Of a stretch of 64,000 nt of DNA, positions 28,865-36,920 are shown piece by piece. A model generated the notes under the pieces. That model was not told the DNA's origin. It was given only the letters and a program-made list of their open reading frames with translations, and made no database searches. The translations under genes and the position numbers were made by a program. Where the stretch lies: contig JACAER010000017.1 in assembly GCA_013388745.1 (NCBI GenBank), positions 62,001-126,000 on the forward strand, read 5' to 3'. This DNA is from Chloroflexota bacterium. Lineage in GTDB: Bacteria > Chloroflexota > Anaerolineae > Aggregatilineales > Phototrophicaceae. The number at the start of each line of letters is the position of its first letter. Positions within the stretch are counted from its first letter, which is position 1.

Positions 28865-29100
28865 ATGCCCGCATCGACCGCCGTACAGCGCCCGCCTGCC
28901 GCGCGTGTGGTGTTCAGTGCCGCCTTCTTTATCGTGGTTTTCATCACCGCGCACCGCGCCAGCGCGCCCCTCAACACGCTCGATTTTGACATCCCTGTCG
29001 CCGCTGTGCAGCGCTTCTGGCAGAGCGTGCGGCCATGCCACTTTGGGTTTTGCGCTGCTGGCCGCTATACTTGCGCCTATTGATTCGCTGCCAACTTCTG
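28865..29100 (+). pseudogene. Possible remnant of a PAP2-family phosphatase gene
   Basis: From the ATG at 28865 a frame encodes a hydrophobic first helix and [19 protein letters not shown], similar in style to the start of PAP2 phosphatases. It then loses sense. In another frame from about 29031, [16 protein letters not shown] resembles the family PSGHA motif followed by a helix. The middle of the protein is missing. This fits an internal deletion plus frameshift, but the match rests on short motifs only. It lies directly upstream of moaC. Confidence 0.3.
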
Positions 29101-29109
29101 GAAACAACC

Positions 29110-29601
29110 ATGAGCGACCAACTCTCACATCTTGACGAATACGGCGCGGCGCGCATGGTCGATGTCAGCGCCAAGCCTGATACCGAACGCACAGCAGTCG
29201 CCGCGGGCACGGTCTATATGCAGCGGCAAACGCTGCACCTGATCCGTGAAGGCGCGCTCAAAAAAGGCGATGTGCTCACTGTCGCCCGTCTGGCCGGCAT
29301 CATGGCCGCCAAACGCACCGCTGAACTCATCCCGCTCTGCCACCCGCTGCCGCTGACGCACATCGACATCGAACTCGCGCTTGACGACGAAAAAGCCGCC
29401 GTAACGATTCGCGCCGCCGCGCGCACTACAGGCAAAACCGGAGTCGAAATGGAAGCCCTCACCGCCGTCAGCATCACCGCCCTCACCATCTACGACATGG
29501 CGAAAGCCGTTGACCGTGCCATGCGCATCACTGACATCCGCCTGCTGGAAAAACGCGGCGGCGTGCATGGCGATTACAGCGCCGACGAAGGAGAACCATG
29601 A
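29110..29601 (+). CDS. moaC: Cyclic pyranopterin monophosphate synthase
   Basis: The 163-residue MoaC converts the MoaA product to cyclic pyranopterin monophosphate in molybdenum cofactor synthesis. Visible signatures are [51 protein letters not shown] and [11 protein letters not shown] with the active-site lysine and aspartate. The length is normal. The stop overlaps the start of the moaD-moaE fusion (ATGA), so the two are co-translated. moaA is not in the window; moeA is at 44866. Confidence 0.97.
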
Positions 29602-30314
29602 ACGTCACCATCCTGTTTTTTGCTACCCTCAAAGACCTCGCGGGCCAAAGCCGCCTCGTGCTGACTCTGCCTGATTCCGCCACGGTGGCCGATGTCAAGC
29701 GCGCGCTCATTGCCCAGCACCCGCAGCTTTCGCCCAATCTCGACAGCGCCATCGCCGCCATCAACCGCGAATATGCCTTTCCCGTCGATGCTGTCAAAGA
29801 GGGCGACGAAATCGCCTTTTTCCCGCCCGTCAGCGGCGGTCAATCGGTATACCCCGAAGTCTTTCGCCTGGCCGCCGAGCCGCTCGATCTGTACACGCTG
29901 CTGGCCGAAATCACGGTACCTGCCACCGGGGCCGTCTGCGTCTTCAGCGGCATGGTGCGCGGCGAAACCGCCAGAGACGGCAGCCTGATTTTGACCAATC
30001 GCCTGGAATACGAAGCCTACGAGCCGATGGCGCTGGCCAAAATGCAGCAGGTCGCCGCCGAAATCCGCGCCCGCTGGCCGCTGGTGCAGGGCATCGCCAT
30101 CGTCCAGCGCGTCGGCCAGCTTGCCGTCGGCCACAACACCATCCTCATCGCCTGCGCCGCCGGACACCGCGATCAGGGCTGCTTCGAAGCCGCGCGCTAC
30201 GGTATTGATCGTCTCAAAGAGATCGTGCCCGTCTGGAAAAAAGAAATCGCCCCCGATGGCGCTTCATGGGTCGAAGGCCACTACTTCCCAAAAGCGGAAG
30301 ATCGTCGCTCATAA
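29598..30314 (+). CDS. MoaD-MoaE fusion (molybdopterin synthase, both subunits)
   Basis: The 238-residue protein contains both halves of molybdopterin synthase. Residues 1-81 are the ubiquitin-like sulfur carrier MoaD, ending in the diglycine PPVSGG (G80-G81). Residues ~87-238 are MoaE, with [23 protein letters not shown]-like [10 protein letters not shown] and the C-terminal EIVPVWKKE active lysines. In separate MoaD the diglycine must be the free C-terminus to be thiocarboxylated, so this chain needs proteolysis after G81 (as reported for MoaX-type fusions) or works differently. It is tightly coupled to moaC. Confidence 0.93.
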
Positions 30315-32602: not shown

Positions 32603-34810
32603 TTAGCGCTCCAAAAACACCCCCACCACCAGCAGCCCATGATCCGATGCCCGGCTGTCTACCACCAGCGACCCCCAGGGCACGAGGCTGCGCAGCCACA
32701 AATAATCAATGCGCGCTGCCTGCCGCGTGCGTAACAGCGTCGCCGCCAGCTCCAGCGGCAGCCCGGCGAACGGGTCGCTGAACTCGTTGTCGCGCATCCG
32801 CTGAATCAAGGGCGAGTCCGGCACATTGTTAAACGTCCCGCCCAGCACCATGCGCCCAAAATTGCCATCAGGATGATGCAGCCGGATCAGCGTAAAAATC
32901 TCGCTCAACTGGCGCTGCTGGTCTTGCTCCTGCTCGTTCAGCGCCGTTCCCGCTGTCTCCGTCAAAAAACCCAGCCAGGTATTGTACAGCGTGATCACGC
33001 CCTCATCAGGTCGAATCTGCACGCGCTGCACACCCGTCTGGCTGCCCTGACTCGTCAGCAGATTGCCATCGGCGAAGACAATTTCCACGTTCGACAGCAC
33101 CGCCAGCCCTTGCAGCCCCTCATTCGTTGAAAAAAAGCGCACATCCATACCCAGCCGCCGCGCCAGCCACAACGGTTGATCGACGCCGAAGCTCGTCATG
33201 CGCCCTGCCTCGATCATTTGCAGCAGCACCACGTTCGCGCCGCTCTGTTCAATCGTCTGCGCAATGGCTTCCAGATCATAATAATAAAACTCGTTGTAGC
33301 CCCAGTGAATGTTGTAGCTGCCGATACGGATGCTGTCCACGTTGCGCACGCCCTGTACCAGCGGCGGACGCGCAGCGAACGCCGCCAGCAGCGCGCACCC
33401 GGCCACAACGACCAGCGCCGCCAGCGAGCGCAGCGCTGATTTTTCGCCCCCCCACGCGATGCGCCGCTGCGTCTGTATCATCGGCACACCCGCCAGCAGA
33501 ATCGCCAGCAGCAGCACCAGCAGCCCCATCCCGCGAAAACCGCGCAGCAGTGGAATTACCGTGTTGTTCAGCAGATCAAACTGCGCCGGCAGATTGCGCA
33601 CATACGCATATTCATACGTAAACACGTCGAAAAACGCCAACGTCGCGAACACCAGCACACCCAGCACAATCCATAAGCCGCTCAGATTGCGTTCTTTTTC
33701 GGCCTGTGGCCTCGCCATCCACCACCACAGCAGACTCGCGCAAAATTGGCCGATCACCAGCAAAAACGCCCCGAAAAAATAAAACGCCGACTGGCGCACC
33801 GGCGGCAGCCCCAGCGCTGTCACCACATTCGACACCAGCGTGGCCAGATCCGCCGACACATACTGCACGCGCGTACCGAACACTAGCAAAAAGGCGATCA
33901 GCCCCGCCCACAGCCAACCGCGCCATTGATTGTCGAACAGGCCAATGAAACCGCGCGCCCAATTGCGCACGCCCGGCACTAGCGGCAGCAGCGTCGCTGC
34001 CAGCGTAAACGGCACCAGTGTCGTATAGTCGGCGTTCGCCCGCCCGGCGATAGCGTTCGGCAGCGCCAGCAGCGATAGTTGCAGGAACATCAGCGCGCCC
34101 ATACCTACCGCGCCCCATGCCGTCAATAGTCCGTAATCCGGCGCGATTTTCGCCTCGCCCTGCGGGCTGCTGGTCGTCCCGCGCCGCCCGCCCCACCAGT
34201 TCAGCAGGCTCAGCACAAGCGCCAGCACCGACAAAAACACCTGCACCTGGACATACGTGACCACAAGGCGTGTATCGGCAGTCAACAGCACGTCCACCAC
34301 GCGCGCCGCCGCCGACCACGAGGGATCGAGCGTGTTGCCAAAAGCGCGCAGCAGTTGGTCAACCCCCAGCGCCAGAATAAAAAACAGCGGCACAAGCTGC
34401 GCTCGCTGCCGGATCAGCAGTGCCAGATACAACAGCCCGCCGCCCACCGTGAGCGCCGAAGCCACCAGAGCCGGCAGCAGCGTGCCCTCCAGCATCAGCG
34501 CACGCCCCGCCGCCGTCAGCCCCGCCGCGATCACCAACGGCCAGCGTAAACGGCGCAGCACCAGCCCCAACAGCGGCAGCGCCAGCATATACAGCACGAA
34601 GGACGCCTGATTGCTGAACACTGCCGGATGCAGCGCTCCCGGTGTCCCCGCCGGGATCGTCGCCGGATCCAGCGCCGCCACCAGCGACGCGCTGCCAAAA
34701 CCGCTGTACAGCGCCGCAACAACATAGCGCAGCGCCTGCACAAAAAATAAGCCCACCAGTGCCGTTTCAACCGCCAGCGCTGCTTGCTTCCACGATAAGC
34801 GTTTGAGCAT
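32603..34810 (-). CDS. Polytopic membrane protein with C-terminal endonuclease/exonuclease/phosphatase-like domain
   Basis: The 735-residue protein has roughly 12-14 transmembrane segments in residues 1-480. A C-terminal domain from about 490 has the EEP fold order: IRIGSYNIHWG, then LLQMIEAG, LYNTWLGFL, VLGGTFNNVP, ARIDYLWLRS and ASDHGLLV. Two usually essential residues look replaced: the His of NTHL is Trp, and the Asp of GDFN is Thr. The domain may therefore be inactive or altered. The final Asp-His pair is kept. The ATG at 34810 is preceded by a GTG one codon earlier. The gene is divergent from the amidohydrolase-CYTH gene. Function is unknown. Confidence 0.75.
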   Translation of the reverse strand: MLKRLSWKQAALAVETALVGLFFVQALRYVVAALYSGFGSASLVAALDPATIPAGTPGALHPAVFSNQASFVLYMLALPLLGLVLRRLRWPLVIAAGLTAAGRALMLEGTLLPALVASALTVGGGLLYLALLIRQRAQLVPLFFILALGVDQLLRAFGNTLDPSWSAAARVVDVLLTADTRLVVTYVQVQVFLSVLALVLSLLNWWGGRRGTTSSPQGEAKIAPDYGLLTAWGAVGMGALMFLQLSLLALPNAIAGRANADYTTLVPFTLAATLLPLVPGVRNWARGFIGLFDNQWRGWLWAGLIAFLLVFGTRVQYVSADLATLVSNVVTALGLPPVRQSAFYFFGAFLLVIGQFCASLLWWWMARPQAEKERNLSGLWIVLGVLVFATLAFFDVFTYEYAYVRNLPAQFDLLNNTVIPLLRGFRGMGLLVLLLAILLAGVPMIQTQRRIAWGGEKSALRSLAALVVVAGCALLAAFAARPPLVQGVRNVDSIRIGSYNIHWGYNEFYYYDLEAIAQTIEQSGANVVLLQMIEAGRMTSFGVDQPLWLARRLGMDVRFFSTNEGLQGLAVLSNVEIVFADGNLLTSQGSQTGVQRVQIRPDEGVITLYNTWLGFLTETAGTALNEQEQDQQRQLSEIFTLIRLHHPDGNFGRMVLGGTFNNVPDSPLIQRMRDNEFSDPFAGLPLELAATLLRTRQAARIDYLWLRSLVPWGSLVVDSRASDHGLLVVGVFLER

Positions 34811-34911
34811 CACCTACTCCAAACCATGGGGGCTGCCGGGGCAAAGCTGCCCCGCGCTTCACTCATAAGACCACTTCACGCGGTCTCTCCACAAAGTTTA
34901 CACATTGCCGC

Positions 34912-34940: not shown

Positions 34941-36920
34941 TTGGAAAACGTAACCACGATCCTCACCGGCGGCACGCTTGTCACGATGGACGACAGCTAC
35001 ACACTCATCCACGACGGCGCTGTCGCCATCCGCGATGAACACATCGTCGCCGTTGGCAGCAGCGCCGAAATCAGCGCCCGCTATCGCGCCCCTCAGGTCA
35101 TCTCCTGTGCCGGACAAATCATCATGCCGGGACTCGTCAATGCCCATACACACGTCCCCATGACGCTGCTTCGCGGCATCGCCGACGATTTGCGCCTGGA
35201 TGTCTGGCTGATGGGCTACATCATGCCCACCGAACGCGAATTCGTCAGCCCAACATTTTGCCGCCTCGGCACTAGCCTGGCCTGCGCGGAAATGATCCGC
35301 GGCGGTGTCACCACCTTCGCCGAAATGTACTATTTTGAAGCCGATATTGCCGCCGCCACCGCCGCCGCCGGCCTGCGCGCCGTGCTCGGCCAGACAGTGC
35401 TCAAATTCCCCGCACCCGACGCCGAAACCTACGACGACAGTCTGCGTTACGCCCGCGAATTCATCGAGCTTTGGCGCGGCCACCCGCTCATCACGCCCGC
35501 CATCGCCCCCCACGCGCCCTATTCCAACACCGAAGAGACGCTGCGCCTCTGCACAGAACTCGCGCTCGAATACGATGTGCCGCTCATCATCCATCTGGCC
35601 GAAACCAAACTGGAAGTCGAAGACCATATCAAGGCCTACGGCCAGAGCGTCATCCGTTGGGCTGCGGCTATCGGCCTTTTCCGCGCGCGTGTGCTGGCCG
35701 CCCACTGCGTCGCCATCGACGCCGACGAAATTCGCCTGCTGCGCAAACACAAAGTCGCCGTCGCCCACAATCCCAGCGCTAACCTTAAGCTCGCCAGCGG
35801 CATTGCACCTGTGAATACCCTGCTCAAAGAAGGCGTCACCGTCAGCATCGGCACCGATGGCCCTGCCAGCAACAATGACCTCGATATGTTCGAAGAAATG
35901 CGCCTGGCCGCGCTGCTCGCCAAAATCCCCGCCGAAGACCCCACCGCCCTACCCGCCAAACGCGCCCTCACCCTTGCCACACGCATGGGTGCGCAGGCGC
36001 TGGGACTCGGCGCTATCACCGGCAGCCTCGAACCCGGCAAACGCGCCGACATCATTGTCATAGACGCCCACCCCACCCACAACGTCCCGCATTTCACCGT
36101 CTCGCCGGATGCTGTCTATTCACGAATCGTCTACGCCGGCAAAAGCACCGATGTCGCCCACGTCCTGTGCAACGGCCAGTGGCTCATGCGCGACCGCCAA
36201 CTGCTCACTCTCGATGAAACCGCGCTCAAAGCCGAAGCGGCCGACTACGCTGCGCGCATCAGCGCCTTCCTCAGCGCGCGCGAAGAAGACCTCGTCAGCA
36301 AACTGCTCGCTATCGGCGGCGAACTCGAACGCAGTGAAAGCTTCGAAGTGCAAGTGAAAGCTGTACTGCACAACGTCTCGATGATCGAAGAACTGCTCGA
36401 CCATCCCGAAATGAAGGTCATCAAATCCATTCACTACCGCCAGTACGACACCTATTTCCTCTTCGACGACCCCAAAAAAGGCCGCCTGCGCTACCGCGAA
36501 GACGACAACATCGACGAAAACGGCGTCGTGCGCTCTGTCCGCAGCCGCCTGACCTTCACCAGCGGCGACAAAGAACGCGAATACAACAACACCATCCTGC
36601 TCTCGCACTCGCGCTACATCAGCGACGCCAACCGCCCGCTGCGCTTCTACCGCGAATATTTCCAGCCCAGCGAAGAACGCGAACTGCACAAAGACCGCCG
36701 CCGCTGGCATGTCGAATACAAAGGCGTGCCCTTCTTCGTCAACGTCGATCGCGTCAGCCATCCCAAACTGCCCGACACCTACATTGAACTCAAAAGCCGC
36801 ACCTGGTCATCCAAAGACGCCGAACACAAAGCCGCCCTCATTCAGGAAATGCTCGACATCCTGCAAGTCCCCGCTACCGACATCCTCAAAGACGAATACG
36901 TCGAAATGCAGGAAAGCTAA
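34941..36920 (+). CDS. Amidohydrolase (MtaD/ATZ-TRZ-like) fused to a CYTH-like domain
   Basis: The 659-residue, two-part protein begins with a complete amidohydrolase (about 1-440) of the 5'-methylthioadenosine/S-adenosylhomocysteine deaminase-like group. The metal ligands are H69 and H71 (NAHTHVP), H218 with E221 (HLAE), H255 (AHC) and D306 (GTDGP). From about 447 a second domain has the look of a CYTH triphosphate tunnel enzyme: QYDTYFLFDD, GRLRYREDD, SRLTF, FVNVDRV and YIELKSRTW, with alternating charged strands. I infer CYTH from this pattern, not from a search. The TTG start has GAGGAG seven bases upstream. Linked deamination and nucleotide or polyphosphate sensing is a guess. Confidence 0.8.
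   Translation: MENVTTILTGGTLVTMDDSYTLIHDGAVAIRDEHIVAVGSSAEISARYRAPQVISCAGQIIMPGLVNAHTHVPMTLLRGIADDLRLDVWLMGYIMPTEREFVSPTFCRLGTSLACAEMIRGGVTTFAEMYYFEADIAAATAAAGLRAVLGQTVLKFPAPDAETYDDSLRYAREFIELWRGHPLITPAIAPHAPYSNTEETLRLCTELALEYDVPLIIHLAETKLEVEDHIKAYGQSVIRWAAAIGLFRARVLAAHCVAIDADEIRLLRKHKVAVAHNPSANLKLASGIAPVNTLLKEGVTVSIGTDGPASNNDLDMFEEMRLAALLAKIPAEDPTALPAKRALTLATRMGAQALGLGAITGSLEPGKRADIIVIDAHPTHNVPHFTVSPDAVYSRIVYAGKSTDVAHVLCNGQWLMRDRQLLTLDETALKAEAADYAARISAFLSAREEDLVSKLLAIGGELERSESFEVQVKAVLHNVSMIEELLDHPEMKVIKSIHYRQYDTYFLFDDPKKGRLRYREDDNIDENGVVRSVRSRLTFTSGDKEREYNNTILLSHSRYISDANRPLRFYREYFQPSEERELHKDRRRWHVEYKGVPFFVNVDRVSHPKLPDTYIELKSRTWSSKDAEHKAALIQEMLDILQVPATDILKDEYVEMQES

Follow-up and report, generated by a model that had tools for sequence, protein, structure and literature searches.

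What might a CYTH/TTM domain, a tunnel-shaped module that normally binds triphosphates, be doing at the end of a nucleoside deaminase? The question is raised by a gene in a 64,000-nucleotide stretch of DNA from a Chloroflexota bacterium (the whole of which we call the window) that appears to join the two in one protein. A preliminary description had recognized an intact MtaD-like amidohydrolase and a CYTH-type domain of ~210 residues in a single open reading frame (ORF), and this has been borne out: for the former by the profile PF01979, and for the latter by matches of homologous proteins to PF01928 and by AF2 modeling with Foldseek comparison.

The gene and its surroundings

The ORF spans 34941..36920 on the plus strand, stop included, and runs as one uninterrupted frame of 659 codons, without internal stops, to encode a fusion protein of 659 aa. 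All the protein features described below lie on this same strand. Translation starts at a TTG preceded by a Shine-Dalgarno-like run, GAGAGGAG, and orthologues are full length in more than 140 loci. In the window the gene is on its own, flanked by a membrane protein gene that diverges from it and by a gene that converges on it. Upstream are genes for RNase III, FabF and molybdopterin synthesis; downstream come gyrase/topoisomerase-A-like and RelA/SpoT-like genes, all of these named by inspection.

Two of the neighbors deserve a word of their own. The divergent gene (32603–34813, minus strand) encodes a 736-aa membrane protein whose C-terminal part looks, by eye, endonuclease/exonuclease/phosphatase-like; a homologue of it adjoins the fusion gene divergently in 19 related loci. 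Further upstream, a 238-aa ORF (29598–30314, plus strand) resembles, again by eye, a MoaD–MoaE (molybdopterin synthase) fusion, and is directly preceded by a MoaC-like ORF (29035–29601). Molybdopterin synthase fusions are known elsewhere.

The deaminase half

Residues 1–440 (34941..36260) are predicted—by profile, fold and catalytic residues alike—to form an amidohydrolase-superfamily domain of the MtaD-like kind, that is, an MTA/SAH/adenosine deaminase type. Amidohydro_1 (PF01979) matches residues 60–414 of the window protein at 4.5e-76, and the best solved relative is PDB 4f0r, annotated as an MTA/SAH deaminase (1.3e-98, 41% identity). The best NCBIfam model, PRK09045 (TRZ/ATZ family hydrolase), scores 466.5 bits, under its cut-off of 540, and PRK06038 scores 412.9 bits against a cut-off of 609; since neither of these equivalog thresholds is reached, this half is a relative of the families in question and takes the name of no equivalog. 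The (beta/alpha)8 fold of the predicted model superimposes with Foldseek TM scores of 0.96–0.97 on 4f0r, 4dyk, 4dzh and 4gbd. These MtaD-type MTA/SAH/adenosine deaminases, from Chromobacterium violaceum (4f0r/4f0s), Pseudomonas aeruginosa (4dyk/4gbd) and Xanthomonas (4dzh), share with the fusion 38–41% identity, that structural agreement over the whole N-terminal domain, and all of the catalytic His, Glu and Asp residues, but they stop after the deaminase, whereas the fusion adds 210 C-terminal residues.

The full catalytic set is invariant among the 142 distinct full-length proteins that we compared. It comprises the HxH metal ligands, H69-T-H71 (35145..35153); the conserved active-site histidine of the PHAPYS motif, H191 (35511..35513); H218 and E221 of HLAE (35592..35603); H255 (35703..35705); and the catalytic aspartate of GTDG, D306 (35856..35858). 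H218 presumably acts as a metal ligand and E221 as the general acid/base, roles that we assign from subtype III amidohydrolases. The source genome encodes four more amidohydrolases of the same superfamily (C58:173717, C58:155049, C32:145675 and C32:163084), 30–38% identical to the fused deaminase and without the tunnel domain.

The tunnel half

The C-terminal domain is less easily recognized. The preliminary description had proposed a profile search of residues 447–659 against CYTH, and the outcome was divided: the window copy's domain by itself matches no Pfam or NCBIfam model, but its homologues do match. Single-sequence phmmer with the window domain, and a profile of the homologue alignment (A1), found nothing among PDB sequences, and a search of PHROGs returned chance-level matches only. 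The homologues come from a scan of contigs that yielded 238 stretches encoding a relative, nearly all from Chloroflexota in the best 80 of the 238, which were the ones used. Scanned singly, 51 of 78 homologous C-terminal domains match PF01928 (best 2.4e-10) and 34 match the cyaB model TIGR00318 (best 2.8e-8); in the genome searches, 10 fused copies score above the gathering cut-off of PF01928, two of these only when neighboring in-frame matches are added. The 78 aligned domains have 28 invariant columns.

AF2, run on the C-terminal alignment, returns a strand-rich domain with a pLDDT of 86.4. Its best PDB match in Foldseek is PH1819 (2een; E 3.2e-8, TMt 0.78), and SaTTM (7ns9), CyaB (3n0z, 2fjt), AtTTM3 and thiamine triphosphatase are among the other best matches; structures of Med18/Med20 also appear. 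On this model the domain, residues ~466–640 (36336..36860), is a predicted eight-stranded beta tunnel of the TTM type. The preliminary description would have fallen with a fold other than a closed tunnel; the fold obtained instead matches TTM tunnels. With the window copy itself silent in Pfam and PDB sequence searches, the CYTH assignment rests on its homologues and on the fold.

Modeled at full length, the protein gives a pLDDT of 91.7 and a pTM of 0.86. Linking helices at residues ~426–458 (36216..36314) connect the domains; the helix at 426–449 runs into the tunnel domain, and K454 is invariant (142/142). The best matches of this model are MTA/adenosine deaminases (TMt 0.95–0.97), and none of the best 50 PDB matches listed spans both domains.

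An altered metal site

Working CYTH enzymes are diagnosed by ExExK, ExE, and either HF or W/YxRxR (PMC8233210). In YgiF, Glu4, Glu6 and Glu162, which belong to the ExExK and ExE motifs, hold metal 2, and Glu160 holds metal 1; it is metal 2 that positions the attacking water (PMC4641920). The second Glu of ExE is required for metal 2 (PMC8233210), and Glu-to-Ala changes at these sites strongly reduce or impair activity in AtTTM3 and YgiF (PMC4641920).

The fused tunnels depart from this pattern uniformly, as counted in the same 142 proteins. The ExExK hallmark has become E469-V-Q471-V-K473 (36345..36359), with E, Q and K each in 142/142, and ExE has become E616-L-K618 (36786..36794), also 142/142 at both positions, so that the putative metal-1 Glu is kept and the metal-2 Glu is replaced by Lys. 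LTxK no longer has its Lys, position 540 being T, L, I, M or V. Other elements persist: the DxY water-placing motif, D503-T-Y505 (36447..36455; D 142/142, Y 138/142); the RxR triphosphate-binding pair, R517-Y-R519 (36489..36497; both 142/142); the basic tunnel strand, K584-x-R586-x-R588 (36690..36704; each 142/142); and D603 (142/142). Judged from these alignments, Gln and Lys have taken the place of two of the three metal-2 ligands, whereas the putative phosphate-binding side and the metal-1 Glu are fixed. The invariance of E469, Q471, K473, R517, R519, K584, R586, R588, D603, E616 and K618 speaks for a functional, if putative, binding site rather than for decay.

We mapped these motifs by using hhalign to compare the fused tunnels with CYTH proteins that stand alone in the same and related genomes (P 5.4e-4, probability 30%). 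The alignment pairs ExQxK with ExExK, LTFT with LTYK, and ExK with ExE; RxR falls in a gap region, where strand order was the only guide to its mapping. The standalone proteins of related genomes are canonical in ExExK, RxR, LTxK and ExE—the few that failed a simple pattern test comprise one truncated row and two spelling variants—and hence the change is specific to the fusion. Nearly every related genome encodes such a separate CYTH protein of ~205 aa, with canonical ExExK, LTxK and ExE (L160 in the source genome; L175–L203).

Measured against the known enzyme classes, the fused tunnel fits none. Class IV cyclases have HFxxxxExExK, a small residue in place of the first Arg of RxR, and ExA (PMC8233210); the fusion has no HF at positions 463–464 in the 142 proteins, R517 is invariant, and ExK stands in place of ExA. 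Thiamine triphosphatases need W/YxRxR, and triphosphatases need ExE (PMC8233210); position 515 of the fusion is R in 112/142 and Y or W in 14, and ExE is gone, although the RxR and DxY contacts of tripolyphosphatases are present. Canonical cyclase, thiamine triphosphatase or tripolyphosphatase activity is thus not predicted from the motifs. Compared with the CYTH/TTM tripolyphosphatases (SaTTM 7ns9, PH1819 2een, AtTTM3, YgiF), the fusion shares the fold, RxR, DxY, the basic strand and the metal-1 Glu, but differs in ExQxK, in ExK, in loss of the LTxK Lys, and in the amidohydrolase attached. By profile and predicted fold it is a divergent TTM-fold subfamily, a CYTH relative that lies outside the characterized CYTH enzyme classes.

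Distribution and inheritance

The fusion occurs in 36 of 41 near relatives. In a sample of 400 Chloroflexota genomes, 89 are positive: 50 of the 55 in the window's class, and 39 from five families outside it. Only one of these genomes (G343) has more than a single copy. A split form was not found: in 89/89 positive genomes the gene is either one frame or truncated by the end of a contig, as with the short frames of G182 and G426. The possibility that the fusion is a recent artefact, which the preliminary description had allowed for in the form of a stop and start between the domains in relatives, is thereby rejected; none of these relatives has one. Ten genomes of the class that lack the fusion hold, at most, distant deaminase paralogues of 30–41% identity, so that neither half occurs without the other.

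Beyond Chloroflexota, the fusion was found in two of 247 sampled genomes of Acidobacteriota. The copies from three Acidobacteriota MAGs cluster in a single clade (99 SH-aLRT) within a Chloroflexota group, which we read as one putative transfer. Records labelled cyanobacterium and Pleurocapsa minor (L039, L043) and Ozemobacteraceae (L073) also carry fusions that branch inside Chloroflexota; these are likely mislabelled or contaminated assemblies, to judge by that placement. Overall, the fusion gene belongs to the core genes of many Chloroflexota and has been inherited largely vertically.

Neighborhoods and metabolic setting

No constant operon partner emerged from 97 neighborhoods, and no defense context was seen around the gene. 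The gene cinA lies directly upstream in 19 of the 97; coaE is the next gene downstream in 10, these being loci outside the class; and glycogen synthase and an inositol-monophosphatase-like gene also recur. In two loci (L033, L035) a purine nucleoside phosphorylase (PNP) gene is directly downstream, which fits deamination to an inosine-type product.

The case for MTA as the only substrate, or an essential one, is weakened by the company the enzyme keeps. MTA phosphorylase (MTAP) and S-adenosylhomocysteine hydrolase (AhcY) each occur, over cut-off, in 38 of 41 relatives, so the deaminase is not the sole route for MTA or SAH, and we reject that candidate role. MTA/SAH nucleosidase is mostly absent from the relatives, and AhcY was not found in the source genome, which is 89% complete. 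Adenosine, arising from AhcY, or 5'-deoxyadenosine would be equally good candidate substrates.

What might the tunnel do?

A tunnel so constrained is no decaying remnant, and ligand binding coupled to regulation of the deaminase seems to us the best reading, although we put its chance, taken whole, a little short of even. The substrate of the metal-dependent deaminase would be adenosine or a 5'-substituted form of it, for example 5'-methylthioadenosine or 5'-deoxyadenosine. In the tunnel permanently attached to it, basic residues would grip a phosphate chain and the retained Glu would bind metal 1, with Gln and Lys replacing the metal-2 site that, in known tunnel triphosphatases, activates the attacking water. 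The tunnel would then most likely bind a phosphate-rich ligand—an NTP, tripolyphosphate, pyrophosphate or polyphosphate—without hydrolyzing it rapidly, and would tune the deaminase allosterically, making the removal of adenosine-type nucleosides depend on nucleotide or phosphate status. The invariant amidohydrolase residues, the TTM fold by profile and structure, the confident full-length model, and the fact that the halves never come apart all favor this. The rarity of the PNP neighbor and the lack of a constant partner count against it, as does the presence of MTAP and AhcY in most relatives, which leaves the need for a deaminase less than evident.

The invariant tunnel residues could equally serve a changed catalysis, and a bifunctional enzyme is a serious rival by analogy, possible if rather unlikely. 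Alongside the deaminase, the tunnel would be active with altered chemistry: either as a one-metal or Lys-assisted pyrophosphatase/phosphatase like plant TTM1/2, or in phosphate-chain transfer like the polyphosphate polymerase Vtc4. TTM1/TTM2 (PF01928 cluster 7; 7z67) likewise pair a nucleotide-metabolism enzyme with a degenerate tunnel that has neither ExExK nor ExE, and they are reported to act on pyrophosphate (PMC8233210); they differ in that their partner is of the kinase type rather than a deaminase, and in that the fusion has uniform ExQxK and ExK and does not conserve W/YxRxR. The acidic-patch positions of the tunnel are basic in Vtc4p (PMC4641920), and K618, the fusion's residue at the second position of ExE, is a step in that direction. 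Among the three positions compared, out of four, however, only K618 is basic; one is Gln, at the second Glu of ExExK, and one, the first Glu, is still Glu. DxY and RxR are kept, as an active enzyme would have it, but the strong loss of activity on Glu-to-Ala change in AtTTM3 and YgiF (PMC4641920) weighs on the other side. So does the structural comparison: the best matches are CYTH entries rather than VTC ones, and no VTC match arose by profile or among the top structures.

A TTM-like fold can also be kept as a scaffold, as in Med18 and Med20 of Mediator. That the fused tunnel is likewise catalytically dead and purely structural, serving oligomerization or stability, would agree with its loss of the metal-2 site, with the appearance of Med18/20 among its fold matches, and with the helix that joins both domains in the confident joint model; yet the residues that never vary include charged residues of the tunnel known to bind phosphate, which a pure scaffold need not keep, and we think this improbable. 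That the tunnel is a class IV cyclase making cAMP, or a thiamine triphosphatase hydrolyzing ThTP, is scarcely credible. The matches of 34 of 78 homologues to the cyaB model are to be expected of any CYTH relative, and the motifs are against it: no HF precedes ExQxK, the first Arg of RxR that cyclases lose is invariant, the second ExE residue is Lys where cyclases have Ala, and the aromatic residue of thiamine triphosphatases at 515 is Arg in 112/142. The preliminary description had suggested that the protein couples purine salvage to polyphosphate or to a cyclic-nucleotide signal. The motifs contradict the cyclic-nucleotide signal and, being altered or absent, make canonical hydrolysis of polyphosphate or ThTP unlikely; a link between purine nucleoside metabolism and a triphosphate ligand may still hold.

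Ligand binding that regulates the deaminase would have a conceptual precedent in type III CRISPR systems, whose CARF-fused adenosine deaminase is under the control of the nucleotide-sensing domain attached to it (PMC12669630); that sensor is unrelated and its function is defense, whereas the present fusion is a core gene. Taken further, the fusions might form a class of ligand-gated deaminases, in which a charge-swapped, non-hydrolyzing tunnel peculiar to them reads the level of ATP, tripolyphosphate or polyphosphate and switches an adenosine-type deaminase on or off in the core metabolism of Anaerolineae and other Chloroflexota. This stronger proposal we regard as doubtful, if conceivable.

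Significance

No characterized protein with this pairing, which the preliminary description had thought without precedent, came to light in the freely readable literature searched, and no paper there contained both 'CYTH' and 'amidohydrolase'. The architecture thus appears undescribed in that literature; InterPro or Pfam architecture listings may well already contain it, and what it joins are known kinds of domain, not a categorically new system. CYTH/TTM proteins are found in every domain of life, most have no known physiological role, and the function long suggested for them where nucleotide and phosphate metabolism meet has been without clear cases (PMC8233210). Here evolution has locked a predicted tunnel to one well understood type of enzyme, and has kept the two together across most Anaerolineae and in other classes of Chloroflexota. 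The uniform change in the metal site of these tunnels is testable, and makes of the fusion a case in which to ask whether CYTH domains can work as sensors.
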